NCBI GenBank assembly: GCA_024637275.1
Contig: JAGXFS010000010.1
Location: forward strand, 1 to 45,759
Direction: 5' to 3'
Source of the DNA: Acidimicrobiia bacterium
Lineage (GTDB): Bacteria; Actinomycetota; Acidimicrobiia; Spongiisociales; JAENVV01
DNA: 45,759 bases
Part shown: positions 24,443 through 37,835 of the stretch, in pieces
How positions within the stretch are numbered: the stretch's first letter is position 1
How the letters are laid out: every line of letters begins with the position of its first letter
Made by a program: the position numbers and the translations under genes
Notes under the pieces: generated by a model
The model's database searches: none
The model's input: only the letters and a program-made list of their open reading frames with translations
Told to the model about the DNA's origin: nothing

Positions 24443-24585
24443 GCACCGGAGCAATCCGGATGCGACCCCCAAAAAGGGCGAGCAGTTGAGCACGGTCTTA
24501 CCCTGGCGCCGTACTCGCTACGACTCTCGCTTGGCTCCTTCGGGAGTAGAGGCTCCGGAACCCCCAACCGGAGCCTCATTTTTTT
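24443..24585 (+). ncRNA. Candidate small non-coding RNA, about 140 nt
   Basis: A good promoter at 24407-24436 and an intrinsic terminator at 24549-24585 bracket about 140 bases with no convincing gene. Predicted structures in order: a 5' hairpin (24443-24463) with stem CCGGA/TCCGG, extended by GCA/TGC across a bulged A, and loop GCAA; a small CCC/GGG hairpin around 24466-24478; a CTCC-TTCG-GGAG hairpin at 24535-24546; and the terminator. Two runs of five cytosines occur (24466-24470 and in the terminator loop). A 9-codon frame (ATG 24460 to TGA 24489) is present but has no ribosome site. I cannot name the RNA family. It could instead be an independent 3'-UTR-derived RNA of the DUF368 gene. 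Confidence 0.6.
24549..24585 (+). terminator. Intrinsic terminator of the small RNA unit
   Basis: A perfect 10-bp stem GAGGCTCCGG / CCGGAGCCTC with a nine-base loop (AACCCCCAA) is followed by A and seven T (24579-24585). The T run exists only on the plus strand, so the direction is clear. It runs into the stop codon of the opposing FlgM-like gene. Confidence 0.9.
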
Positions 24586-24793
24586 AACCCGTCATCGATG
24601 ACCGATGACGGATCTCGTTTTCGGGATCGCGAATTGAGCCGACGGGCACCGGATTGTCGCCCCACTTGGGACGGCCAAACAGAATCGCATGAGCGATGTC
24701 TTCAGCGTCTACCCAGTAATCCCCGGCGGCGATCCGATCTGCCAGATCGTCGAGCCGCCGATTCCACCACGTCGTTGAGTCCTTCTTGTGCAC
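24584..24793 (-). CDS. Small FlgM-like anti-sigma factor domain protein (second of pair)
   Basis: From the GTG at 24793 the product is 69 aa. Its core, RLDDLADRIAAGDYWVDAED, then IAHAIL, matches the C-terminal sigma-binding helices of FlgM (I..G.Y.VD...IA.AI). The frame is open to a TTG at 24880, but that would overlap the upstream gene by 44 bp and add a residue stretch with no likeness to the family. The tail after FGRPKWG is polar. FlgM holds sigma-28 inactive until flagellar hook completion, but no flagellar genes are in the window, so the partner sigma factor is unknown. It lies 43 bp after the first FlgM-like gene. Confidence 0.65.
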   Translation of the reverse strand: MHKKDSTTWWNRRLDDLADRIAAGDYWVDAEDIAHAILFGRPKWGDNPVPVGSIRDPENEIRHRSSMTG

Positions 24794-24836
24794 CCTTTGG
24801 TATCGGCAGCGACTTGGCTGTAATTGAGGAAAACCC

Positions 24837-25148
24837 TCAGGTTTCCCTAGGTTCCCAACGACCCTCGCGCATGACGGCAACGGCGACGATTTCCGGATCC
24901 ACCTGGTACTCGCCAGATTGAATCAAACCGCGCAGTTCACCAAGTAGGGCCTTGCGCTCCTGAGGGGTGGCCATGGGAGACAAGCGAGGACCGTCGAAGG
25001 GGTCGCCAGTCGAAAAAGGATCGGCCGCCAGCATGTCGTTGGCTGGCATGTCGTTGGCTGGCATGGTTTTGGCAGGCGTCTGGCTCGCCGACTTGGCGTC
25101 GGCCGCGCGATGATTTGGCAAATTCTCGTCGCTATCTGAAGCCCCCAT
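24837..25148 (-). CDS. FlgM-like anti-sigma factor domain protein (first of pair)
   Basis: The 103-aa product (ATG 25148, with GGTAGGA about eight bases before it; a GTG at 25181 is also open) has a disordered N-terminus rich in Asp/Asn/Ala and the repeat PANDM, then the FlgM-type C-terminal motif LLGELRGLIQSGEYQVDPEI with VAVAVMREG after it. In FlgM this part forms the helices that bind the sigma factor and the N-terminus is disordered, exactly as here. With the neighbouring gene it makes two adjacent single-domain FlgM-like proteins. Neither the target sigma factor nor flagellar genes are visible. Confidence 0.7.
   Translation of the reverse strand: MGASDSDENLPNHRAADAKSASQTPAKTMPANDMPANDMLAADPFSTGDPFDGPRLSPMATPQERKALLGELRGLIQSGEYQVDPEIVAVAVMREGRWEPRET
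25031..25065. repeat. 15-bp in-frame tandem repeat in the FlgM-like gene
   Basis: GCATGTCGTTGGCTG occurs at 25031-25045 and 25046-25060, and a third partial copy begins at 25061. It encodes the repeated PANDM pentapeptide in the disordered N-terminal part of the FlgM-like protein and looks like slippage expansion. Confidence 0.85.
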
Positions 25149-25281
25149 GAGGAATATCCTACCCACCGGTAGACCAATCACCTAGCAAAAACAACCGGCG
25201 CCCGGCTGACGTACCGAGCCTTGACAGGCAGTTCCACACGTTGTGGCTACCCCGAACCCCGGTTGGTTGTACGCTTGGCTC

Positions 25282-26289
25282 ATGACTATTGGTGTACTCG
25301 GGGCAGGTTCATGGGGAACCGCAGTGGCCGCGTTGGCCGCAGCAAAGAACGACACACTCCTGTGGGCGCGCCGACCGGAAGTCTCCGATTCGATCAACCG
25401 CGAACACGTCAACCCTTCCTACATCAGCGACTTCCCTCTCCCCGAATCGCTCGTAGCGAGTTCCGACATTCACAAAGTCGCAGGCAACTGCGAGGTGCTC
25501 ATCATTGGCGTGCCTTCGCACGGATTTCGCAGCATCCTCGAGATTGCTGCCGGTTCGATCCCCGAGTCGGTACCGATTCTTTCTTTGACCAAAGGGATCG
25601 AGGCCGGGACGCTAATGCGCATGACCGAGGTCGTCGCCGACGTGTTGCCCAACCACCCGCGCGATCACATCGGAGTCCTGTCGGGTCCGAATCTTGCCAA
25701 GGAGATCATGGCCGGCCAACCGGCCGCCACGGTGATCGCGTTGCCCGACCTCAACCTCGCCGAAGAAGTTCAGACCCGCTTCATGACTCCGACGTTCCGG
25801 GTTTACACCAACCCTGACGTGGTCGGCTGCGAGATCGCCGGAGCTTGCAAGAACGTCATGGCGATCGCCTCAGGGATGGTCTCGGGTCTCGGCTTCGGCG
25901 ACAACACTCGCGCCGCCCTCATTACGAGAGCTCTCGCCGAACTCGTCCGTCTCGGCATTGCAGTCGGCGGCAATCCTCTCACCTTCGGCGGATTGGCGGG
26001 CGTCGGCGATCTCGTCGCAACCTGTTACTCCTCCCAAAGCCGCAACTACACCGTGGGGCACGGTCTCGGAGAAGGCAAAGCACTCGACGACATCATTGCC
26101 GAAATGAACATGGTGGCTGAAGGCGTGAAGTCCACAGCCGGCGTCCTCGCCCTGGCGGACAAGGCCAAAGTCGAAATGCCTATCGCTGTCGAAGTCGGGC
26201 GGGTGTTGTACGAGGGAGCCGACCCGGAGTCTTCGATGATGGCGCTGATGGGACGGACGGCCAAGTCCGAAGGACATGGGATCTTCTAG
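25282..26289 (+). CDS. gpsA: Glycerol-3-phosphate dehydrogenase, NAD(P)+
   Basis: Reduces dihydroxyacetone phosphate to sn-glycerol 3-phosphate, the backbone of phospholipids. The 335-aa protein begins TIGVLGAGSWGTAVAALAA (NAD binding) and has LSGPNLAKEI, the catalytic-lysine segment GACKNVMAIASGM, GGLAGVGDLVATC and SQSRNYTVGHGLG. I chose the ATG at 25282; the frame is open to 25243 but the extra 13 residues precede the first strand of the Rossmann fold. It is divergent from the FlgM-like genes (about 130 bp apart), and convergent with sbcC, separated by 53 bp. Confidence 0.96.
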   Translation: MTIGVLGAGSWGTAVAALAAAKNDTLLWARRPEVSDSINREHVNPSYISDFPLPESLVASSDIHKVAGNCEVLIIGVPSHGFRSILEIAAGSIPESVPILSLTKGIEAGTLMRMTEVVADVLPNHPRDHIGVLSGPNLAKEIMAGQPAATVIALPDLNLAEEVQTRFMTPTFRVYTNPDVVGCEIAGACKNVMAIASGMVSGLGFGDNTRAALITRALAELVRLGIAVGGNPLTFGGLAGVGDLVATCYSSQSRNYTVGHGLGEGKALDDIIAEMNMVAEGVKSTAGVLALADKAKVEMPIAVEVGRVLYEGADPESSMMALMGRTAKSEGHGIF

Positions 26290-26321
26290 GAGAGTTCTGG
26301 CATCAGCGGCCGCGACACGGC

Positions 26322-26405
26322 CGAGGACCAACAAATCTTCTTCTAGGTACCGACCACGATCGTGGCACCCGTAGCCGGGTCCTTGTCGAGGACCAACAGA
26401 TCTTC
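26322..26405. repeat. Imperfect 19-bp direct repeat at the 3' end of sbcC
   Basis: CGAGGACCAACAAATCTTC (26322-26340), just after the sbcC stop, and CGAGGACCAACAGATCTTC (26387-26405), inside its last codons (encoding EDLLVLD), differ at one base. It looks like a remnant of a duplication or of a longer gene end. Confidence 0.7.
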
Positions 26406-28862
26406 GATCCGGTCTTTCATGTCGGGCACATGGCTGACGATGACGACCAGTCGGTCATCATGTCCCGCCACCAACGACTCGATTCCGGCCATCGCCAGGT
26501 CAAGATGTTCGGCATCGAGTGAACCAAACCCTTCGTCGAGGAAGAAAGAATCAAGTCGGCCGCTCCCGCGCGACACCATCTCAGCGAGCGCCAGAGCGAG
26601 AGCCAGCGACGCAAGAAAGGTCTCACCGCCCGAAAGCGTCGACGATTTCCTGACCTGCTCGGCCGCATTCAGATCGATGATGTTGAAATCACCATCATCG
26701 GAGAAGCGGTAACGACCCCCGGAAAGCTGTTCAAACTGCTCCGACGACACCCGGCCCAGTTCGGCCCGTTCCTCCTCGAGGAGGTAGCCAAGAAAGGCGC
26801 CAGGACGAAGGTCCTTGGCGAGATCGTCGTAGAGTTCGGCGACTGTCTGGCGGGCGACGATCTGTTCTTCGAGGTCGGCCGCCTGAGCCAGCCGCTCATT
26901 GCGGACATCAACCTCGCGCTGAGCGGCCGCCACGGCCGCGACTGAGTCGGAAAGCGCCTTGCCGAAGTCATCTTCAGGCGAGAGACCAACTACCTCCATT
27001 GCCTCAGCTCGAAGTCGGGTGGCTTCGGCAAGGCGAGCGATGGCGGCTTCCCGAGCATCCAATGCCTGCTTCTGTCTTTCCACCCAGACCTCCCGCACCG
27101 AAGCCAGGAGTTGCTCAGTATCAGTCGCCTCAAGCAGGTCCTCGTGCTCAACCGCCAACTGGGCCGCCAGCCTCGACACGGTCAGGGTCAGATTTCTCAG
27201 TCCAGCTTCGGCTTGATCGACCTGTTTTTGGCCGTTCTCGACTTCGACATCTGCTTGCTTCTTGGTGGATTCGAGACCCTGCACACGGACTTCGACGTCG
27301 AGTAGGCGTTCCTCAATTTCGGCGAGTCGCTCGACCGGCTTCTTGCCGAGGATTGCGACCAGCGTCTTGTCGATCTCTTCCACCACGCCAGACGCCTCTT
27401 CGGAGGCTTGCTTGGCGTCAGCGGCCACCGCTTCGATGTCGGCCAGAGACTTCTCGGCACTGTTGACGGCTTCGGTCGCGGTGGCCGACTCGGCAAGCCC
27501 CGCCTTCTCGGCGGCGGTGACTTCCAACAACTCGCTCCGGGCTTTGTCCCTGGCTTTTTCGAGTTTCGCAAGAGCCGTTCCTGCCTTACTCGGGGCAGGC
27601 AGTTCGGCGACTGGTTGAGCGCAGACCGGACACTCGTCATCGGCGACGAGTCCTGCCCGTAGGGTCGCAGCCATTTCGGCGTGGCGCCCCTCATGGAGTG
27701 CTTCTTCGGCGACCTGCAACGCGGCGGTCGCGGAGGTTGCCTTCTCTGTCAATGCGGCAGCTTTGGCAACGAGCTTCTCGGCCTCCTTTGTGGTTTTCTT
27801 GACGAGTGCGCCAGCTGCTTCAACTTTGGCGACGGCGTCGGTATGCCTCAGCGATTCGCGCTCAACCCCGGTACGTGCATCAGCTAGCCGGGTCACCTGC
27901 TGGCGGGCCACGGCTAGCTGCGCTTCGTCGCCGACCGATTCCAGAACGTCGAGTCGCTCACGACGGGCCGCGTCTATCGCCGCTCCGGCTTCTCTGGCGC
28001 GCGCTTTGGCTGCGACCAATTCGGATATCTTCCCACCATGATCCTTGAGGATCTTCTGGCTTGCACCGCTGTCGGGCATTCGTTCGGCCAGCACTTTCAG
28101 CGAGGCGGTCTGTTCGCCTGCCCGGTCGATCTCGATCTGAGCTGCCTGGCGGACGGCCTCGGCGGATTCCACCACCGGTGCACGTTCCACGAGGGCCTTG
28201 TGCCGTTCCGTCGACGTTACGAGGACTTCCCTAGCTCGGACGGCGAGGGCCTTCACGTTGTCCAGGTCAGCCTTGCGACGGCCGAACTCTTCAAGGTCTC
28301 GTTTCGCCTCGTCGCGGATCCGCTTGGCCACGGACTCCATGACATCAACTTTGTCGAGTCCGAATACGCCTTTAAGTACTTTGTCGCGCTCGGTGCTCGT
28401 CGCCTTGAGGAAGTCCGAGAACCGACCCTGCGCCAACATGACTGAGCGATTGAATCCGTCGAAATCGACCCCGAGGATCTCCTCGATCCGCTCATCAACC
28501 GGGCCTTTCTGCAAGATAGTTTCAAGCGGCTCGCCGTCGGGATCATTCGGGTCGACCCGATACAGGGCGTGGGCGCTCTGTCCGGTTCTTCGCAGAGCTC
28601 GAACCGACTTCCAACGTACCCCCTCGACATCGAAGACAAACTCAACCTTGCCGACATCGGCTCGCTGATGAATGAGCGACTTCTGATTGGACTTCTCGGT
28701 CGGAGTCTTCCCATAGAGCGACAGGCATATTGCGTCCAGGATCGAGGATTTTCCGGATCCGATCGGGCCGACGATCCCCACGAGGTGGCGCCCGGTCCAG
28801 TCGATCTCGATCTCGCTGGCGTACGACCGGAACCCGTCCAGGCGAAGTGTGACCGGTCTCAT
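26343..28862 (-). CDS. sbcC: SbcC / Rad50-type ATPase subunit of the DNA-end-processing nuclease
   Basis: The 839-aa protein has an SMC/Rad50 layout: N-terminal FRSYASEIEIDWTGRHLVGI and the Walker A GPIGSGKSSILDAI (about residues 32-45), two coiled-coil arms with a zinc-hook motif CPVC at residues 411-414, and at the end the signature LSGGETFLASLALALALAEM and Walker B FFLDEGFGSLD. It binds SbcD and holds DNA ends apart or together. At 839 residues it is shorter than E. coli SbcC (1048), the difference being in the coiled coils. Its start overlaps the end of sbcD by 4 bp, and it is the last gene of a nurA-herA-sbcD-sbcC run. Confidence 0.96.
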   Translation of the reverse strand: MRPVTLRLDGFRSYASEIEIDWTGRHLVGIVGPIGSGKSSILDAICLSLYGKTPTEKSNQKSLIHQRADVGKVEFVFDVEGVRWKSVRALRRTGQSAHALYRVDPNDPDGEPLETILQKGPVDERIEEILGVDFDGFNRSVMLAQGRFSDFLKATSTERDKVLKGVFGLDKVDVMESVAKRIRDEAKRDLEEFGRRKADLDNVKALAVRAREVLVTSTERHKALVERAPVVESAEAVRQAAQIEIDRAGEQTASLKVLAERMPDSGASQKILKDHGGKISELVAAKARAREAGAAIDAARRERLDVLESVGDEAQLAVARQQVTRLADARTGVERESLRHTDAVAKVEAAGALVKKTTKEAEKLVAKAAALTEKATSATAALQVAEEALHEGRHAEMAATLRAGLVADDECPVCAQPVAELPAPSKAGTALAKLEKARDKARSELLEVTAAEKAGLAESATATEAVNSAEKSLADIEAVAADAKQASEEASGVVEEIDKTLVAILGKKPVERLAEIEERLLDVEVRVQGLESTKKQADVEVENGQKQVDQAEAGLRNLTLTVSRLAAQLAVEHEDLLEATDTEQLLASVREVWVERQKQALDAREAAIARLAEATRLRAEAMEVVGLSPEDDFGKALSDSVAAVAAAQREVDVRNERLAQAADLEEQIVARQTVAELYDDLAKDLRPGAFLGYLLEEERAELGRVSSEQFEQLSGGRYRFSDDGDFNIIDLNAAEQVRKSSTLSGGETFLASLALALALAEMVSRGSGRLDSFFLDEGFGSLDAEHLDLAMAGIESLVAGHDDRLVVIVSHVPDMKDRIEDLLVLDKDPATGATIVVGT

Positions 28863-30025
28863 TCCTGGCGTCCGGCTTCGTCGAGGACCGTGCGAAATGC
28901 GCCCAACAGTTCGTCGCGCGGTTCGGACCCGGTGCGTTCGGTGACGAAATCCCGATACAGCTCATCCCATGCCAGCCCGGCGCGAGAGGGACGATCGACC
29001 TCGGCTCGCGCATAGCTTGCGGACACTTTGACGAGGAACGGGAAGTGTTGGCGAGCCCGATCAGCCAGACCAGGATCAGGTCCGTCTGTCTCGACAGTGA
29101 GATCGACAAAGGCATCGACCAGGTCAGTGCGTTCGGCCAACTCTTCCCACCGGCCCGTTGCTCGCATGAGCCGACGGCCACCGGACAGATCAACCGCTCT
29201 CGTCGAGGCTGGCAGACCGGCTTCAGCTTCCACGATCACGACTCGTTTTTGTTCGCCTGCCTCGCCAAAATCGAGCTCCAGTAGCGACCCGGCGTACTCC
29301 GCCGGCACCTGGGCACCGGGCACCGGCTGCGGTGCATGGATATGTCCCATCGCCACGTAGCTCAGAGAAGTTGGTACGGCTTGGGAAGTCGCCGAATAGG
29401 CCTCGCCCATGTGTAGCGCCCGTTCCCCTCTGGGACGCCCATGCCCGCCGACCTTGGCACCGGTCACTATGAAGTGGGCGACCAACAGGGCTACCCCGTC
29501 GGGTCCGGCCAGCTCTGACGCCCGGGCGGCGTAGGCCGTCGTGATCTGGCGAACCCGGTCAGCATAGGAGCCGTACCAGGTGCCCATCTCTTCCATGAAG
29601 TCGACCACCCGACCCTCGCGCAAGAATGGGAAACAGCCGATCGCCGCATCACCGTTTCGGGTCGTGACCGTCAAGACCCCGCCCCCCTCGGGTCGTTTGA
29701 TGTCACCAACCAGTCGGACTCCAAGGGGCGCCATGAGCGGATCGAGGACCTCAAACAATGCGGCGGAATCGTGGTTTCCGGCGACTGCGACCACGGGCCT
29801 GGTCCCGTCGGCCGAAAGGGCCGTCAGTGTTTCCACGACGAGTGACAAAGCTTCCATGGGTGGAGCGGCCCGATCGAACAGATCACCGGACACGATCACC
29901 AAATCCACGTCTTCGGCTTCTGCAACGTGAACGACTTCGCCGAGGACCTCACGGTATTCGTCCATCCGGTCGTACCGGCCCAGCTTTTTGCCAACATGCC
30001 AGTCGGAGGTGTGGAGGATTTTCAC
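28859..30025 (-). CDS. sbcD: SbcD / Mre11-type nuclease subunit
   Basis: The 388-aa protein is the manganese-dependent nuclease partner of SbcC. The calcineurin-like metal ligands are all visible: Asp8 and His10 in HTSDWHVGKK, Asp48 in VSGDLFDRA, Asn84-His85 in VAGNHDSAAL, later LLVAHFIV, and GHIHAP near residue 230. The C-terminal 140 residues form the capping and SbcC-binding part. It starts 3 bp after the herA-like stop and its end overlaps sbcC by 4 bp. Together with SbcC it opens hairpins and trims ends of DNA breaks; the neighbours suggest the complete resection set. Confidence 0.95.
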   Translation of the reverse strand: MKILHTSDWHVGKKLGRYDRMDEYREVLGEVVHVAEAEDVDLVIVSGDLFDRAAPPMEALSLVVETLTALSADGTRPVVAVAGNHDSAALFEVLDPLMAPLGVRLVGDIKRPEGGGVLTVTTRNGDAAIGCFPFLREGRVVDFMEEMGTWYGSYADRVRQITTAYAARASELAGPDGVALLVAHFIVTGAKVGGHGRPRGERALHMGEAYSATSQAVPTSLSYVAMGHIHAPQPVPGAQVPAEYAGSLLELDFGEAGEQKRVVIVEAEAGLPASTRAVDLSGGRRLMRATGRWEELAERTDLVDAFVDLTVETDGPDPGLADRARQHFPFLVKVSASYARAEVDRPSRAGLAWDELYRDFVTERTGSEPRDELLGAFRTVLDEAGRQE

Positions 30026-30028
30026 TGC

Positions 30029-31744
30029 TTAGAGGCCGACAAAAGGATCGCCGTCCTCGCTCACTTCCTCGCGGCGAGTCGCCCAGGGCGGAAATGGAAA
30101 GTTGACCACCAGCGGCACCGGTATGGCCGGTTGCGAAATCACCATGGTGCCCGGCTTGAGGAGACGCGCCCTGGCCCTGGTCGAAGGAAGCATCCAGCCG
30201 TATTCGGATCGTTCTGCTTCGGCCGCATCCAGCCGGCCCGCCACCCGGATCGCGGCGTTCTCCATCACCTCTTGGGCGATACGTGAGGCAGTCTGTTGGG
30301 CTCCAACGAGCAGCACGCCCAGCGACCGCCCCCGCTGGGCGATATCAATGAGCATGTCCTTGAGCGGAGAGTTGCCTTCCCGGGGCGCATACTTGTTGAG
30401 TTCATCGAGCACGACCACCGACAAGGGAAGGCGCTGACCGGTCTGTTCCTTTTCGGCGAAGGTTTCCTGAAGCAGCGCACCGACGACGAACCTCTGGGCG
30501 AGGTCGTGTAACGACTGGATCGCCACCACGGTTACCTGGGCCGATCCCCGATCGATTCGGTTCGAGTCGCCTGCCCGGATCAGTTCACCGAGGCGGGATT
30601 GGGCGGCGTACAAACGTCGCATGAACGCCGATACCGTGCCGCCCTGTACTCGGCCCGACCAGGTCCGGTCGGGCTCCTCACCATCGGGGGGATCAAGGTA
30701 TTCCTCCAACGCAGCGACCAGGCTGGGCAGATCTTCGATGACCCGCTCCCCTGGCTCGACCTTAACTTCCGCGCCGCGTTTCCATCCTCCGATCGGTGGC
30801 TGACGGATGACGACGGCTCCTGGACGTCCGACGATATCGACCGCCCATCGTTGGAGCTGGGAACGCACTCGCTCTTCAACAAATGAGAGTTGGTTGCGGC
30901 TATCCCCTGCGTCGGTGAACAGAAAGCGGAGAAGCCCCTCATCGATAAACTCACGAGGCGTCCAGGCAAACGGTTGGACACCCTCTTGGCGACCTGCCAC
31001 ATCAGGTAGAAGGACATCACCCGATTTCTTGCGGGGAGGCGCCCAGAACGCAACCGAGGGAAACGGGGTCGGTTCCACGCCGAGTGCTTCCCATTTCTGG
31101 CGAGCTTCGTCATCAAAAAGTGCATTGGGCTTGTCGAGCCAGAGCAGGTCTTCACCTTTTACGTTGAAGACGAGCACCCGCATGTTGACGCCCGACTCAC
31201 CGACGATGTCGCGGCGACCGGTCAGCATGCGGAGAAAGAACAGAGCAAACGAGGTTTTGGTGGCCACGCCCGAGATCCCGGAAATCGACATGTGCCCGCC
31301 CTTGCGACCGTCAAAGAAGTCGAGATCTACATAGAGCGGTTGATTGTCACGGCCGATGCCAACCGGTAGCGGGCGACCCATCTCATCGGCATAAAGAGCT
31401 TTGTCCCTCGCCTCGCCGCTCGCTCGCTCGACAAGTTCACCGGGGTCGGGCGAGACCCACACCTCCGGATCGACCCGGGTCACCTGGATCTGAGCAGACC
31501 GCACCTTCTGGGCTGGGAGAATGCCGTGTTCGGCGATACGGAACGTGTCTGATTCGTATGAGGCACCTTCGTACACCGCCTCTGATTCGGTGACGATGCC
31601 ATACGTGGCGATCTCACCGGCTTGCGGGACCTGGGTGCGAACGACCACCAGGTCGTCGAGTTGCAGGTACTCCGTGTCATCGAGAACGACGCGAAACACC
31701 TGGGTTGATGTTTTTTCAGTTCCAACAACCCGCCCGACGCTCAT
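30029..31744 (-). CDS. herA: HerA-like hexameric DNA translocase (HAS-barrel ATPase)
   Basis: The 571-aa protein has an N-terminal beta-rich stretch (residues 1-95: VGRVVGTE...QLDDLVVV...YGIV) resembling the HAS barrel of HerA. Its ATPase core has a P-loop at residues 156-165 reading GISGVATKTS, Walker B at VVVLDE (Asp447, Glu448), and sensor segment VGAQQTAS. The P-loop differs from the usual GxTGSGKS: Lys163 and Thr164 are kept but the glycine before the lysine is replaced by Thr and one residue is inserted. HerA pumps DNA into NurA and Mre11/Rad50 during end resection. Its start overlaps nurA by 4 bp; sbcD follows by 3 bp. Confidence 0.85.
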   Translation of the reverse strand: MSVGRVVGTEKTSTQVFRVVLDDTEYLQLDDLVVVRTQVPQAGEIATYGIVTESEAVYEGASYESDTFRIAEHGILPAQKVRSAQIQVTRVDPEVWVSPDPGELVERASGEARDKALYADEMGRPLPVGIGRDNQPLYVDLDFFDGRKGGHMSISGISGVATKTSFALFFLRMLTGRRDIVGESGVNMRVLVFNVKGEDLLWLDKPNALFDDEARQKWEALGVEPTPFPSVAFWAPPRKKSGDVLLPDVAGRQEGVQPFAWTPREFIDEGLLRFLFTDAGDSRNQLSFVEERVRSQLQRWAVDIVGRPGAVVIRQPPIGGWKRGAEVKVEPGERVIEDLPSLVAALEEYLDPPDGEEPDRTWSGRVQGGTVSAFMRRLYAAQSRLGELIRAGDSNRIDRGSAQVTVVAIQSLHDLAQRFVVGALLQETFAEKEQTGQRLPLSVVVLDELNKYAPREGNSPLKDMLIDIAQRGRSLGVLLVGAQQTASRIAQEVMENAAIRVAGRLDAAEAERSEYGWMLPSTRARARLLKPGTMVISQPAIPVPLVVNFPFPPWATRREEVSEDGDPFVGL

Positions 31745-32742
31745 GCAGCTCCGTTAGTCGACTGACCAATACTCTCCCGAAGGGCACGATAGACCAATCC
31801 GGGGTCTCCCAAGTTGCGGCGCAGCTCCCGCTCCAAAGCCCCGATCGGTACAAGGTTCTGGGGAGCCCGCGGGTCGATGTGCAACGGTGGAGCGGTCTGG
31901 GGCAACAATAGGGCAGCGATATCGGCGTAGAAGGTTGCCTGCTCAATCCCAAGCGAGGCGGCAACCTCGCACCGAACGACACCGGACCAGGTGTGGCCTC
32001 CCGGAATGTCGGCCAGTTTCAGGTACCAGGAGTACTTCTGAAACATGACGCCGTCCATGAGAAAAATGGGCGTTCTGGTTCTAGCCGAGAGCTGCCGGAC
32101 AGTGTCGGTTTCTTCCAGTGGGAGGTAGTTGACGCGATGCGTCTTGATGAACCCGATGACCGACTGGGGCTTGGTTTCGTAGACCGGTCCGTCGGCGATG
32201 ACAAGGTGGCCTTCAGCCGCCAGCTGCGAGGACAGGTCTGCTTCTGCCTTGCGCATCCGGCCATGGAAGTATCGAATCAACTCGGCGGGGTCCTCGCCGG
32301 CGACCGATACCGGCTCGTACCGCAGGTTGCCGGCCGCGGGTACCTCGACGACACGGCCTGACCCGACCACGGCGAGCCTTTCAATCAGCACGTTGCCAAA
32401 CGTGGCACGCGGGATCGTGCGGTCCCAATGGGTTGCACCAACGCCAAGCGATCCGCAGAGTCCCGGTATGGGGCCCTCTGGCTCATCGAGCGTAAGGCGG
32501 GCGTCGACTCTCCGGACTCCGTCGACAAAACACATCGCTTCTACCGAATCAGCTGCCGACGCGTCTGGCTGGCGCGGGGCCCAGGAGGTCGTCTCGACGC
32601 TGACATCGATTACCGACTCACTTGGAGCCAGCGACGGGTCGTGTTCGATCGGTGCTCCATATTCGGGTGCCCAGTTTTCTACATACAGCATGGCGCCGAT
32701 CGTAACGGGCCGGTGTGACAGATTCGGGTTTCCTGGTGACAC
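31741..32742 (-). CDS. nurA: NurA-type nuclease
   Basis: The 333-aa ORF (GTG at 32742; an internal ATG at 32691 gives 316 aa and is equally plausible) shows the NurA pattern: an early VDG in CFVDGVRRVDARL (Asp74), a middle helical section, and the later VIADGPV (Asp184) followed by GFIKTHRVNYL. In characterised NurA proteins such aspartates bind the manganese that cuts DNA 5'-3'. The fold match is by motif and by position next to HerA, since NurA sequences diverge quickly. It overlaps the HerA-like gene by 4 bp and follows the sugar-dehydrogenase gene by 42 bp. I see no transmembrane or signal segment. Confidence 0.75.
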   Translation of the reverse strand: MSPGNPNLSHRPVTIGAMLYVENWAPEYGAPIEHDPSLAPSESVIDVSVETTSWAPRQPDASAADSVEAMCFVDGVRRVDARLTLDEPEGPIPGLCGSLGVGATHWDRTIPRATFGNVLIERLAVVGSGRVVEVPAAGNLRYEPVSVAGEDPAELIRYFHGRMRKAEADLSSQLAAEGHLVIADGPVYETKPQSVIGFIKTHRVNYLPLEETDTVRQLSARTRTPIFLMDGVMFQKYSWYLKLADIPGGHTWSGVVRCEVAASLGIEQATFYADIAALLLPQTAPPLHIDPRAPQNLVPIGALERELRRNLGDPGLVYRALRESIGQSTNGAA

Positions 32743-32784
32743 AGAGTGCCATCTGCGGCCCTCCCGGACTGTTGGCCGAGATGC

Positions 32785-34029
32785 CTAGCGCTGCGGGACG
32801 AGGCGGTAGACACCCTGGGAGGTTGCCAGGTAGAGCTCCCCGTCGGCGCCTTCCCCAAACGACGACACCTGACCAACCGGCCCGCCAAGCTGGTCGGTGT
32901 AGTCGGTGACCTGACCCGGGTCGGACAACGGAAAGCCCCGTACATAGCCTCCGCAATAGTCTGAGAAGAAATAGGTACCAACCGACTCGGGGATGGCGGT
33001 GCCCCGGTAGACGATTCCGCCGGTGATGGAACACGAGCCGGCATCAGCATGTGACACCTCGACGGCCGGCAGGGTCAGACCGGAGCGATCACAACCTGCC
33101 GACGGACTGAAGCAGTGCAAGCCTTCGGTGATCGGCCAACCCAAGTTCGCTCCGGCATCGTCCATCGACACGATGTCGACTTCTTCATACTGATTCTGAC
33201 CTACATCTCCGATGATCATCGAACCGCTAGCTTCATCGATCCAGAAACGCCAGGGATTCCGGAGTCCCCACAACCAGATTTCGGGCGTCGCGTCGGCGCG
33301 GTCCACAAACGGGTTGTCGGGAGGTATTGCGTAGCCCGCCTGGTCCGAGACCTCCAGGCGCACGATCGTACCCAACATAGAGGTCAGGTTCTGACCGTTT
33401 CCGTACCGGTCGCCACTCCCGCCGCCGTCCCCAAGACCCACATAGAGGTAACCGGCTGAGTCGAACTGAATCATGCCTCCGTTGTGGTTTCCGGCCGGTT
33501 GCGCGACCGCCAGAATGCTCCGCTCGGTTTCTGGATCGGCTACGTTATCGGCGACCACGAAGCTGGAGACCTGCGTGTTGCCTACCCGGTCGGAGTAGTG
33601 GACGATGAGCAAACTCCCGCCGGGATAGGCTGGATGAAACGCCGCCCCGAGCAAGCCGCGCTCGCCGCCATCGAGCACCTTGTCGGTGATATCCAGAACC
33701 GTCTCGCCGCTGTCCATCAGCACAATCAATCCGGACTTATCGGCCACGTAGGTCTGAGATCCAGACGAGAAGACCAGGATCGGGAAGCCAAGGTCGAGGT
33801 CAATACGTTCGAGTGACAAGCCCGTCAGCGGCGCCAACGGTGTCGTCGTAGTAGCCCCCGGAACGACGGCACTCGTGGTGGTTGACCGCTCAGCGGGCGC
33901 GACGGTCGAGGACGCCGGGAGCGAGGTAGTGCTCGAAACCGGGGCGAGTTGACTCGTCGAACAGGCACCAAGCAGCAACATCGAAACTGCGACCGTTACC
34001 CAACGAGAGCGCGTCAAGGCGGGCGCCAC
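32785..34029 (-). CDS. Secreted PQQ-dependent sugar dehydrogenase (glucose/sorbosone dehydrogenase family), lipoprotein
   Basis: I start at GTG 34029 (414 aa), a few bases after the TPM gene stop; a TTG at 34017 is an alternative. The longer open frame to 34353 translates the glycine-rich tail of the TPM gene in the wrong frame. The N-terminus has a lipoprotein signal (VSMLLLGAC) and a Ser/Thr linker. The rest is a six-bladed propeller of the soluble PQQ aldose dehydrogenase type, with GERGLLGAAFHPAYP, NHNGGMIQFDSAGYLYVGLG (catalytic His in NHNGG), GLRNPWRFWID and a calcium/PQQ-binding region. It oxidises aldose sugars outside the cell. It is adjacent to nurA by 42 bp. Confidence 0.88.
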   Translation of the reverse strand: MAPALTRSRWVTVAVSMLLLGACSTSQLAPVSSTTSLPASSTVAPAERSTTTSAVVPGATTTTPLAPLTGLSLERIDLDLGFPILVFSSGSQTYVADKSGLIVLMDSGETVLDITDKVLDGGERGLLGAAFHPAYPGGSLLIVHYSDRVGNTQVSSFVVADNVADPETERSILAVAQPAGNHNGGMIQFDSAGYLYVGLGDGGGSGDRYGNGQNLTSMLGTIVRLEVSDQAGYAIPPDNPFVDRADATPEIWLWGLRNPWRFWIDEASGSMIIGDVGQNQYEEVDIVSMDDAGANLGWPITEGLHCFSPSAGCDRSGLTLPAVEVSHADAGSCSITGGIVYRGTAIPESVGTYFFSDYCGGYVRGFPLSDPGQVTDYTDQLGGPVGQVSSFGEGADGELYLATSQGVYRLVPQR

Positions 34030-34031
34030 GG

Positions 34032-36377
34032 CTACCAACCGCTTGAACCGCCACCGCCACCGCCACCGCCACCGAAACCCCCGCCACCACCAAAGCCACC
34101 GAACCCGCCAGACGAACCGCCCCACGAAGAACCCCACGAGGACGACCCCGACGAGCTTCCGCCACCACCGAAGCCCCCGCCACCACCGAAGCCACCGAAC
34201 CACGAATTGGTGTCCTGCGACCAGGAACGGTCCTGATAGATCGGTTCCCAGCCGCGTCCATGGCCGGTGCCACCAGTGATGATCCACCGGTAATACAGGA
34301 GCGTGAATGGGTCGAAGCTTCGCAGCGATCCTGGGATGATTTCGCCGGTCCAACTGTCGCGACCTCGACGGGTGCCACCGTGAGCAAGTTCTGGTGCATA
34401 CCGATCGGCGTCCTCGATCCCACCCCGGGCCAGGGCTTGACGCTGGGCCGCGTAGGCGACCGCGAAGGCTCGTGGACCACGTGGGTCCGAGGCACCAAAG
34501 GCCGCTGCCACGTCGGCGTACGCTCCGCTCAGACCGAGCTTGGCAAGCGCCTCGCGGGCTTCAGTCCACTTCCTTAACGCCACACTCGACTCAAGCGAGA
34601 TTGCGAGCAGGGCGGAAACGGTCTTGCGAGTATCCGTATCGAGTCCCTGGGTGGCGAGGCCGCCAGAGAGTTCGTGGAATGCTTCAATGGCTCGATCTCC
34701 CCTGTCCAGCAGGGCCGCCGCGATGGCTACCGGGAGGTTGAGCGAGTCGGCTTGGGCTCGAACCTCGGCAATTTCGGATTCCGTTCGGAGTCCAGCCATC
34801 GCGAACTCGACGCTCATCTCGGCATCATTACCGAGGCGTTTGGCTTCGCCGTAGGCAGCCAGGAACTCGTCGACCGAGTCGTTGTTCATCAAGATGAAAG
34901 CGGCCACCGCCGGTACCGATAGACCATCCTGCTTCAGTTGGGACTTCTCCAACTTATCCAGAACGACCTCATAGCGGGCAAGTGCCGCTTCGGCGTCGTC
35001 CTCAAGGTCGACCAGAGCTGCAGACACCGCCGGACGCGCTTCATTCTCATCGAGACGATCACGGATCAGTTTCAGTCGGGTGGCTTTGTCGGCTGCCGTC
35101 ACATAGGCGGAGTCCACCTCGTTCACTGAGTCAAGAATCGGTGCTCCCGGAACAAGCACCGGACCCGCCTGCACCAGTCGCTCGCCCAGGTCGTTGACGA
35201 TCACGGGCCCGATCGGGGTGCTGACCGCGCGATGAATCAACCGGCGAGCCGTCCTGGTTCGCTCGTGCGCCACGCGATAAGGACGCAGCGAGGAAACCAG
35301 CTGCTTGAGTTCTTCGGACTTCAAATTGAACTGATCGTCGTGGGTGGTGGCGATCGTTTCGGTGACGGATGCCTGGAGGGCATCCTCCAAAAGCTGTTGC
35401 TCACCGGTGATGGCGAGTTCCAGCGGCATCTCCCGCTCAGCTGCCACCCGGTCTTCATGCAGGACTTCGAGCAGGCCGGCCGACCAGGCGGCAGCCAACG
35501 CGTCGCGATCGCCTGCCTGCCCGTCCATGACCGCCTCGAGCGCCGAAACCACCGGAAGCGTCTCAGCGTTGGGAGCTTCGACCGGGCGCAGCTCGAACAG
35601 TTCATCGCGCAGTGCCAGCTCATGTCCGTATGGGGTTAGACCTTCGAGAATCGTGTCGACTTCAGCTTCCTGGCGCCGTTTGCGAGCAGATGAGACGAGG
35701 AGGTTCTTCTTCCGAAACTCGCTCGACACGAAAAAACCACCCACGATCAACATGAGGCCCAAAACTGGACTGAGCGAACCAAGCCCCGAACCGGGATTGG
35801 GAAGGCTGGGCGGTGGGTTGAATTCGGGAATATCAATCGGCGTGTCCGTGCCCTGCCCGGTATCGGGTCCCCCGGTTGACGGGAACCCGCCGGTGTCGCT
35901 GAACGTCGCGACCAGCCCCGCCACAATCGCCGAAATCCCCCCGTCAAAGTCGCCAGCCGCAAAGGAGCTGTTGCCAAGGCCAGCAATGAAATCCGGATCG
36001 GACAGGCTGATTCCGGGGCCTGTCTCCACCGCGGTGATGCGTTGATCGAGGGCCACCAGCACCACGATCCCGTCATCGACGCCGGAGCTTCCCACTCCCC
36101 AGATGTTGCCGATCTCCTGGGCCAAAGCGTTGGGGTCATCTGCCGACTGCACGATGACGATGGCAATTTCGTGACCGTAGTTGTTGATTACGCCATCAAC
36201 AAGACGTTCCAGATTGGCATCGTCGCGGATAATTCCGGCGGTGTCAGTTACCCAACCGTCACAAGTGATGCCGTCAACGGCCGGACATTCGGCAGTTTGC
36301 GCGCCAGCCGCGCCACCGATTGGCAGCGAGGCGATGAGAAGAAACAGTACGGGTATGAGACGTCGAGCCCTGGTCAT
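34032..36377 (-). CDS. Large TPM-domain membrane protein with glycine-rich C-terminus
   Basis: The 781-aa protein has a signal peptide (LIPVLFLLIASLPIGGAAGAQ), then a TPM (YgcG) domain with VTDTAGII, HEIAIVIVQSADDPNALAQEI and GVDDGIVVLVAL, a Pro/Gly linker, one hydrophobic segment (GLGSLSPVLGLMLIVGGFFVSSEF) and a long mostly helical cytoplasmic part of about 450 residues with repeated helix pairs. The end is a Gly/Ser/Phe low-complexity tail of about 60 residues. Plain YgcG proteins are about 280 aa, so this is an enlarged form. The TPM domain is linked to membrane-protein or photosystem repair, but its job here is open. It heads the minus-strand run that leads to nurA-herA-sbcDC. Confidence 0.85.
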   Translation of the reverse strand: MTRARRLIPVLFLLIASLPIGGAAGAQTAECPAVDGITCDGWVTDTAGIIRDDANLERLVDGVINNYGHEIAIVIVQSADDPNALAQEIGNIWGVGSSGVDDGIVVLVALDQRITAVETGPGISLSDPDFIAGLGNSSFAAGDFDGGISAIVAGLVATFSDTGGFPSTGGPDTGQGTDTPIDIPEFNPPPSLPNPGSGLGSLSPVLGLMLIVGGFFVSSEFRKKNLLVSSARKRRQEAEVDTILEGLTPYGHELALRDELFELRPVEAPNAETLPVVSALEAVMDGQAGDRDALAAAWSAGLLEVLHEDRVAAEREMPLELAITGEQQLLEDALQASVTETIATTHDDQFNLKSEELKQLVSSLRPYRVAHERTRTARRLIHRAVSTPIGPVIVNDLGERLVQAGPVLVPGAPILDSVNEVDSAYVTAADKATRLKLIRDRLDENEARPAVSAALVDLEDDAEAALARYEVVLDKLEKSQLKQDGLSVPAVAAFILMNNDSVDEFLAAYGEAKRLGNDAEMSVEFAMAGLRTESEIAEVRAQADSLNLPVAIAAALLDRGDRAIEAFHELSGGLATQGLDTDTRKTVSALLAISLESSVALRKWTEAREALAKLGLSGAYADVAAAFGASDPRGPRAFAVAYAAQRQALARGGIEDADRYAPELAHGGTRRGRDSWTGEIIPGSLRSFDPFTLLYYRWIITGGTGHGRGWEPIYQDRSWSQDTNSWFGGFGGGGGFGGGGSSSGSSSWGSSWGGSSGGFGGFGGGGGFGGGGGGGGGSSGW

Positions 36378-36477
36378 GGCTCAGAGACTACCGGCGAAGG
36401 CCAACTATCTGGGCCGTAGGAAAACAACCGATCATCCGTTGTTCGACGAAGTGGTCCTCTACGCTTGGCCGCCGAAC

Positions 36478-36483
36478 AAGGAG
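36478..36483 (+). promoter_or_regulatory. Ribosome binding site deciding the UMF1 transporter start
   Basis: AAGGAG lies five bases before the TTG at 36489, while the longer candidate TTG at 36465 has no such site. This places the start inside the first open frame. Confidence 0.8.
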
Positions 36484-36488
36484 CTGCG

Positions 36489-37835
36489 TTGAGCACCATC
36501 GTGAAGAACGACAAGAAGACCATCTTCGGATGGGCCATGTACGACTGGGCGAACTCCGCTTATGCGACGACATCTGGAGCCATCGTCGCTCCGTTCTTCA
36601 CTGGTTCCATCGTCCCGGAGGAAGGCTACTGGGGTATGACCGGTGGCGCGATCTGGTCGTTCCTCGTCGCTGGCGGGGCCTTCGTTCTATTTCTGATTAT
36701 GCCGATCCTGGGAGCGATGGCTGACTTTTCATCGGCTAAGCGTGCCTATCTCCGGGTGTTTGCATTCCTGGGAGCCGGATTCACGTTCGCCATTTTCTTT
36801 GTCCCATCAGGCTCGGTGCCGCTGTTCCTGATGGTATTCATCGTCTCCCAGGTCGGCTTCGTCGCCGCCAACGTTTTCTACGACGGGTACCTCCCGATCA
36901 TCGCCACCGACGAAACCATTGACCGGGTGTCATCGAAAGGGTTCGCTCTGGGATACATCGGCGGCGGCATCTATGTGCTGTTCGCGTTCATCCTCATCGT
37001 CCTCGCCGACCAAGAAGTGATCGGCCTAAGTCTCGACATGGCCACCCGCATCTCCATCGCCGGAGCCGGTGTGTGGTGGGTCCTGTTTACGATCTATGCC
37101 CTGAAACGATTCCCCACCGACGGCATATCCCAACCAATACCAGCCAAGTATGCCGGGCAACCCGACGTCGTGGCTTACGCCAGAATCGGCCTAGCTCGCA
37201 CGATCAAAACCGGGCTCCGTTTGCGCCAGTTCCCGCAACTCCTGCTCTTCATCTTCGCTTTCATGTTTTATAACGACGGCACCCAAACCGTGATCAACAT
37301 CTCCGGGGCCTATGCCGAAGACACCCTCAACCTGTCGCTTCAGGAAGTCATCATCGCCTTCCTGATCGTTCAGTTCATCGCCTTTGGGGGCGCGTACGCT
37401 TTCGGTTGGATCTCCGGGAAGATCAAACCGAAACGGGCGATCCTTTTCAATCTGGTCGTCTGGGTAGGGCTGGCGGTTAGCGCCTACTTCCTGCCAGAAG
37501 GTGAAGCTGTCCCCTTCTTCATGCTCGCCGCAGTCGTAGGATTTGTTCTCGGCGGGGTCCAAGCGTTGTCTCGCAGTTTGTACGGCACGATGATTCCCGA
37601 AGAAGCCGCTGCCGAGTTCTACGGGTTCTTCTCGGTCTTCTCGAAGTTCTCAGCCATCTGGGGACCGTTGCTGTTCGGCATCGTTACCGCCCAAACCGGA
37701 AGTGGCCGCAACGGCATCATCTCAGTTGCTGCTTTCTTCATTATCGGCGGTTTCTTGCTCACCCGGGTCGACGTTGACGAGGCCAGAGCCAGCAAGGAAC
37801 GCTGGCACTTCGAAGGCGCCGACGTCGACGCCTGA
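36489..37835 (+). CDS. UMF1-family (Atg22-like) MFS transporter
   Basis: The protein, 448 aa from the TTG at 36489, begins with the family signature IFGWAMYDWANSAYATT and continues with twelve predicted membrane segments. The motifs PILGAMADFSSAKRAYL, ANVFYDGYLPII, SKGFALGYIGGGIYVL and GGVQALSRSLYGTMIP are typical of UMF1 permeases, which are related to the yeast vacuolar amino-acid effluxer Atg22. The natural substrate in bacteria is not known. It is divergent from the TPM gene (110 bp) and convergent with the ABC permease gene (14 bp). Confidence 0.93.
   Translation: MSTIVKNDKKTIFGWAMYDWANSAYATTSGAIVAPFFTGSIVPEEGYWGMTGGAIWSFLVAGGAFVLFLIMPILGAMADFSSAKRAYLRVFAFLGAGFTFAIFFVPSGSVPLFLMVFIVSQVGFVAANVFYDGYLPIIATDETIDRVSSKGFALGYIGGGIYVLFAFILIVLADQEVIGLSLDMATRISIAGAGVWWVLFTIYALKRFPTDGISQPIPAKYAGQPDVVAYARIGLARTIKTGLRLRQFPQLLLFIFAFMFYNDGTQTVINISGAYAEDTLNLSLQEVIIAFLIVQFIAFGGAYAFGWISGKIKPKRAILFNLVVWVGLAVSAYFLPEGEAVPFFMLAAVVGFVLGGVQALSRSLYGTMIPEEAAAEFYGFFSVFSKFSAIWGPLLFGIVTAQTGSGRNGIISVAAFFIIGGFLLTRVDVDEARASKERWHFEGADVDA

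Follow-up and report, generated by a model that had tools for sequence, protein, structure and literature searches.

Background

In the archaea Sulfolobus and Thermococcus, the functions of HerA, Mre11, Rad50 and NurA are encoded together in a single operon (PMC4351679, PMC2288612, PMC12977600), for which the published descriptions give the order herA, mre11, rad50, nurA (PMC4351679; locus tags in PMC12977600). Among bacteria, the structure of the NurA-HerA pair of Deinococcus radiodurans is available (7f6d), and in vitro its HerA hexamer feeds DNA into a dimer of NurA, the 5' tail being cut during translocation and the 3' tail left (PMC9960219). According to a 2023 statement, few bacteria have NurA-HerA, Deinococcus-Thermus being the example named (PMC9960219). 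In 2017, the authors who reported the nurA-hepA-sbcD-sbcC cluster of Oceanithermus profundus, in which sbcD and sbcC lie downstream of herA (hepA), had pointed out its similarity to the system of archaea (PMC5448004). Here we describe a nurA-herA-sbcD-sbcC operon in a 45,759-nucleotide stretch of DNA (hereafter, the window; contig JAGXFS010000010.1) from the genome of an uncultured Acidimicrobiia lineage. Its four genes form one evolutionary unit in this class and beyond, and our findings suggest a candidate accessory module for the processing of chromosomal double-strand ends.

Both the structure of a bacterial NurA-HerA pair and the four-gene bacterial arrangement are already known; the operon of the window is a widespread member of the same kind, and priority is not claimable. 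Our literature search, conducted mostly without subscription journals, returned no account of the four genes in Acidimicrobiia and no report of a cassette that occurs in two gene orders and is swapped. The O. profundus cluster, which we liken to the window by its description only, contains the same four genes and is a single observation from a different phylum, whereas the arrangement described here is family-wide and exists in two orders.

A compact operon encoding NurA, HerA, SbcD and SbcC

The minus strand from 32742 to 26343 carries four open reading frames (ORFs), at the positions and with the spacings reported in a preliminary description of this DNA, and they encode NurA, HerA, SbcD and SbcC in turn:

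31741-32691, minus strand: nurA, bacterial-type NurA nuclease, 316 amino acids from the probable ATG start at 32691 (the listed ORF begins at GTG 32742)
30029-31744, minus strand: herA, bacterial-type HerA DNA-translocating ATPase, 571 amino acids (7f6d_B)
28859-30025, minus strand: sbcD, Mre11-family nuclease, 388 amino acids (TIGR00619, 4lty)
26343-28862, minus strand: sbcC, Rad50-family ATPase, 839 amino acids (AAA_23, SbcC_Walker_B, TIGR00618)

The genes overlap or abut one another (nurA/herA -4 bp, herA/sbcD +3 bp, sbcD/sbcC -4 bp) and, as in archaea, all four stand in one operon.

The four family assignments of the preliminary description are borne out, although for NurA it had looked to profile matches as well as to an RNase-H-like fold, and the profiles failed. 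Pfam, NCBIfam and PADLOC gave nothing for NurA, and a search of the whole genome with PF09376 was equally negative. A single-sequence search of the PDB nevertheless recovered NurA of D. radiodurans (7f6d_H, E=2.1e-20) and TM1739 of Thermotoga maritima (1zup, E=1e-9). The structure predicted by AlphaFold2 from a 41-sequence alignment has a mean predicted local distance difference test score (pLDDT) of 90.8 and a predicted template modelling score (pTM) of 0.89. Its clear top matches in Foldseek were 7f6d_G (E=1.6e-19, template modelling score 0.75) and 1zup (E=4e-16), both consistent with an RNase-H-like fold, and no significant match was found in a viral structure library. Catalytic residues were taken from PMC9960219 and transferred through the 7f6d alignments; D53, K201, R309 and W8 of the Deinococcus protein (DrNurA) correspond to D57, K183, R275 and W7 of the window, all invariant in 44 homologues. 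We consider the identity of NurA settled by its homology to 7f6d together with a confident model predicted to share the RNase-H-like fold. Since direct homology and fold both agree, the failure of the profiles is explained by the divergence of bacterial NurA.

The nurA start is probably ATG 32691, which falls at residue 18 in the ORF as listed, rather than GTG 32742, because most homologues align with the listed ORF only from residue ~14-20 onward, a sister species has an in-frame stop inside its match to the GTG-started query, and the DNA-contacting W8 of DrNurA falls on the invariant W7 of the ATG-started protein.

HerA likewise gave only weak, partial profile matches below threshold in Pfam, NCBIfam and PADLOC, and a single-sequence search of the PDB aligned its residues 2-565 with HerA of D. 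radiodurans (7f6d_B, E=4.7e-123). Residues K175, T176, D220, D487, E488, R495 and R552 of the Deinococcus protein (Walker A/B, arginine and TR-motif) are all conserved; in the window, K163, T164, D199, D447 and E448 are invariant in 28 homologues, and R455 and R512 are nearly so. All catalytic and DNA-contact residues that we tested are therefore kept in these members of the same families. The acidic interface residues D78/E80/D81 of Deinococcus HerA are only partly kept (E80 is replaced by F68 and D81 by R69), and the details of the contact between NurA and HerA would accordingly not be those of Deinococcus.

Judged by sequence, this is a bacterial-type NurA-HerA pair and not a recent archaeal import. 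A profile of 41 NurA sequences reached no archaeal NurA structure at E<=10, and one of 28 HerA sequences reached no archaeal HerA structure at E<=0.01. We rejected a recent archaeal origin because the profiles reach bacterial NurA and HerA structures only. The archaeal operon shares the four functions with the window, whose NurA and HerA fall in the bacterial branch.

SbcD and SbcC are ordinary family members, identified without ambiguity by their sequence matches. SbcD scores 155 bits against TIGR00619 (cut-off 78) and matches the SbcD structure 4lty at E=6e-24. SbcC matches AAA_23 (E=5e-19), SbcC_Walker_B (1e-9) and the sbcc family TIGR00618 (E=3e-66), and contains a Walker A motif GPIGSGKS, a CPVC hook, an LSGGE signature and a Walker B motif FFLDEGFGSLD. 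The pair consequently comprises an SbcD phosphoesterase and an SbcC SMC-type ATPase with a zinc hook.

Distribution and co-inheritance of the four genes

Across a sample of 198 Acidimicrobiia genomes, and with counts that ignore shared ancestry, nurA was found in 69 and herA in 68; both occur in 66, five genomes are discordant (3 and 2), and 127 have neither. SbcD exceeded its curated cut-off in 67 of the 71 genomes with nurA or herA, and the four remaining carriers (G021, G154, G170, G197) are fragmented assemblies. Within the window's order, nurA and SbcD occur together in 41 genomes, and nine have neither nurA nor herA nor an SbcD above the cut-off. In G192, which is among the 41, herA found no match, but the contig with nurA measures just 4.9 kb.

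The preliminary description had staked its reading on adjacency in relatives, and this was found. Our first survey yielded 49 fetched loci with the four genes clustered, some of them representing one genome counted twice; outside the class, the four genes stand together at 26 of 29 HerA loci, another is truncated where its contig ends, and the remaining two show herA alone within the fetched stretch. The arrangement is not unique to the window: besides the O. profundus precedent, the cassette occurs throughout Acidimicrobiia, elsewhere in Actinomycetota and on a plasmid of a cyanobacterium. The linkage is far from chance.

Two more distant arrangements were also observed. One genome with a nurA-first cassette has a second, very divergent nurA-herA-sbcD-sbcC set at 26-30% identity (L187, G348:C15). 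At L188 (G225:C1, family f57), a distant HerA (~30% identity) stands beside SbcD/SbcC-like genes with no recognisable NurA, and an ORF of ~265 amino acids lies between herA and sbcD.

Two gene orders and the exchange of whole cassettes

The cassette exists in two orders: type A, nurA-herA-sbcD-sbcC, as in the window, and type B, herA-sbcD-sbcC-nurA, found in other Acidimicrobiia, in Nonomuraea and on a Streptomyces plasmid. Type B consists of the four homologous genes, in some cases occupies the very locus at which type A is found, and differs from the window in having nurA last, in ~35-50% identity and in the 0-7 kb of unrelated genes that may separate herA from sbcD. These inserts encode a decarboxylase, glutamine synthetases, a desaturase, a reductase or an acyl-CoA dehydrogenase, the exception being an AlkZ-like glycosylase in L115; conserved extra subunits at this position were considered and rejected, as the inserts are unrelated genes. 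The archaeal order is that of type B and not that of the window. The resemblance to the archaeal unit proposed in the preliminary description consequently holds for gene content and fails for gene order. The same description had suggested that placing nurA first allows co-translational assembly, which is speculation, given that coupling is equal in the nurA-last relatives.

In 45 cassettes, the HerA, NurA and SbcD trees all divide type A from type B at one branch (supports 98/94, 100/100 and 77, respectively), and the distances of the three proteins are correlated (0.89-0.94). A quick tree of 72 labelled rows, with long branches, requires two changes of gene order. A strict link between order and clade outside the class was rejected, since L173, L185 and L186 are nurA-first and yet have a HerA near the B branch. 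Type B probably represents a rearrangement that is derived or that arose twice, with rooting unsure from the long branches.

The two types also occur within the same family or genus group, as in G137 versus G082 (family f7, genus g17) and G160 versus others of family f3. In different families of the window's order, both lie near the same flanking genes, with a GSDH-type gene and an MFS gene on one side and gpsA on the other. In the window, these flanks, which are not part of the module, are as follows:

32785-34353, minus strand: Glucose/Sorbosone-dehydrogenase-type gene (GSDH), upstream of nurA on the same strand and near both cassette types in relatives
25243-26289, plus strand: gpsA, convergent with sbcC and bounding the cassette locus on its opposite side

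Because both types share this locus, whole cassettes appear to be swapped as units at one chromosomal site. Linkage, co-occurrence and matching trees together show that the four genes evolve as a single unit.

Co-inheritance may also arise if NurA-HerA and SbcCD act separately and their genes are merely co-regulated or co-transferred, NurA-HerA then being a quality-control nuclease that degrades ends and so keeps recombination in check. Unlike in the window, nurA-herA of Deinococcus and Thermus is unlinked to sbcCD, and strains that lose it can tolerate damage better (PMC9960219, PMC5448004). Moreover, 17 class genomes, all outside the window's order, have SbcD without nurA-herA, the loci L174 and L180 (one genus) have herA without the other three genes in the fetched stretch, and in type B unrelated genes may keep herA and sbcD as much as 7 kb apart. 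Against these points stand the near-absolute linkage, the loss of the genes as a block within the order, the matching trees and the retention of the cluster in two orders, and we regard separate action as rather unlikely.

Other repair genes of the genome

The preliminary description had proposed that the operon might serve in place of RecBCD, AddAB or AdnAB, a proposal that the rest of the genome does not sustain. An adjacent AdnA-AdnB pair is encoded on another contig, both proteins with a UvrD helicase and a PD-(D/E)XK nuclease (AdnB versus 6ppu_B, E=1.2e-103), and the same genome encodes RecF, RecO and Ku; a search of it for RecQ gave none above the curated cut-off. Replacement of AdnAB was thus rejected for the window genome, and the presence of AdnAB, RecF, RecO and Ku indicates that the operon adds to the standard machinery rather than substituting for it. 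In this respect the lineage differs from Deinococcus-Thermus, described as lacking RecBCD/AddAB (PMC9960219).

A role as the main resection machine of the lineage as a whole is highly improbable. It would have an archaeal precedent, and two genomes of family f5, genus g8 (G109 and G200), have no detectable AdnB, unlike three congeners, with G109 carrying the cassette. However, PF12705 nuclease matches are present in all 59 genomes of the order, besides the adjacent AdnA and AdnB of the window genome. In G109, synteny with G101 ends ~9 kb short of the AdnAB locus, and the entire block, larger than AdnAB itself, is missing, which reflects either a deletion or an incomplete assembly, the two being indistinguishable.

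Genomic neighbourhoods: repair or defence

Several cassettes outside the window have repair genes as neighbours. Ku is divergent from nurA within ~160 bp in L167, L168 and L184 and lies 2-4 kb from herA in L174, L176, L179 and L180, which suggests a link to end joining. LigD domains were found in two cassette flanks, and in L115 the AlkZ-like glycosylase follows herA. In the window's order, the cassette occupies a stable housekeeping locus, between its GSDH/MFS side and its gpsA side.

Other neighbourhoods fit an anti-phage or anti-plasmid cassette, in which SbcCD and NurA-HerA would destroy foreign linear or recombining DNA and would be exchanged as accessory immunity. A SIR2-HerA pair directly follows sbcC of a distant type A cassette (L091:9662-13149), and a ZacA/ZacB pair adjoins another (L092:1202-4245), both with HerA at 41-42% identity. 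On a plasmid of Streptomyces sp. BB1-1-1 (L155, NZ_CP134205.1, 980-19447), herA-sbcD-sbcC-nurA stands beside a Wadjet-like set (DUF2397, TIGR02678, TIGR02680, TIGR02679), its nurA annotated merely as a hypothetical protein, and a cyanobacterial conjugative plasmid bears a type A copy. Presence is patchy and block-wise, and other HerA ATPases are defence motors. Furthermore, the two-strand-degrading archaeal HerA-NurA has been proposed to be antiviral (PMC12977600).

In contrast, among the matches listed, PADLOC hits were no more frequent in the flanks of the 26 cassettes outside the class (~6/125) than in random control regions (~6/115), counts small enough that only strong enrichment can be excluded. 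General residence in defence islands is accordingly not supported. The four window proteins showed generic, partial ATPase or nuclease similarity to PADLOC components (SIR2-HerA, MADS, Lamassu and others) and no system-specific match. Taking into account the single stable locus within the order and the Ku, LigD and AlkZ neighbours, we consider a primarily defensive role unlikely.

Viral collections yielded only a few distant HerA relatives. In Marinitoga camini virus 1, whose host is a thermophilic bacterium, one of two adjacent genes (L157:3663-6371) is annotated as a Rad50/Mre11-associated single-strand exonuclease and the other as HerA, with no sbcCD.

Other features of the window

Upstream of the GSDH-type gene, a TPM-domain protein with a long Gly-rich tail is encoded at 34032-36377 on the minus strand; as the two ORFs overlap, the GSDH start is probably misplaced. 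Two short ORFs of 98 and 114 amino acids, which lie one after the other at 24584-25181 and are also on the minus strand, contain the similar stretches AGDYWVDAEDIAHAIL and SGEYQVDPEIVAVAVM and look like candidate FlgM-type anti-sigma factors. No RNA families or tRNAs were found in the window. A promoter scan of 26000-36800, uninformative for this lineage, gave no sigma-70-like site.

Proposed role of the module

We interpret the operon as an accessory module for chromosomal double-strand-end processing that acts beside AdnAB, RecFOR and Ku, and we assign this reading a probability of roughly 0.55, because of the intact active sites, the overlapping genes, the co-occurrence and matching trees, the repair neighbours, the stable locus, the lack of defence enrichment and the rarity in viral collections. 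We infer a single pathway for the four proteins. Elsewhere, SbcCD is established to open hairpins and blocked ends; here it would bind a break, hairpin or blocked end and open it. Homology and conserved residues suggest that a HerA hexamer would then load and pump the duplex into a NurA dimer, which would degrade the strands; if the Deinococcus pair is a guide, the 5' tail would be cut during translocation and the 3' tail left. SbcCD would thereby hand ends to HerA-NurA, with the product serving recombination or end joining. The module would supplement AdnAB, probably for ends on which AdnAB cannot start or that need SbcCD.

A number of observations weigh against this interpretation. AdnAB is already present in the genome, and order members without the module also match PF12705, which makes the module dispensable, whereas the corresponding genes are essential in Sulfolobus. 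Only about a third of the class genomes have it, and the Ku loci are confined to three families (f79, f82, f55) of Actinomycetota. Patchiness, swapping, plasmid copies, and Wadjet and SIR2-HerA neighbours are typical of accessory defence. Additionally, deletion of nurA or herA in Deinococcus and Thermus results in mild or even improved damage resistance (PMC9960219), and the T. kodakarensis complex degrades both strands, its authors arguing against resection (PMC12977600).

On a bolder reading, which we consider unlikely, the four proteins would form a resection machine equivalent to that of archaea. In it, SbcCD would hand DNA to HerA-NurA independently of AdnAB, the machine would be the only dedicated route in some relatives (G109 and G200 being candidates), and it would also have been recruited into defence islands from repair loci on the chromosome.

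Given the spread found here, the 2023 statement on the range of bacterial NurA-HerA was an understatement. The role of the bacterial pair is disputed, as it has been studied in Deinococcus and Thermus, where it has no link to sbcCD and phenotypes conflict. A large bacterial group in which the four genes form an all-or-none, exchangeable unit beside AdnAB, and sometimes beside Ku, offers a natural system for their joint function.

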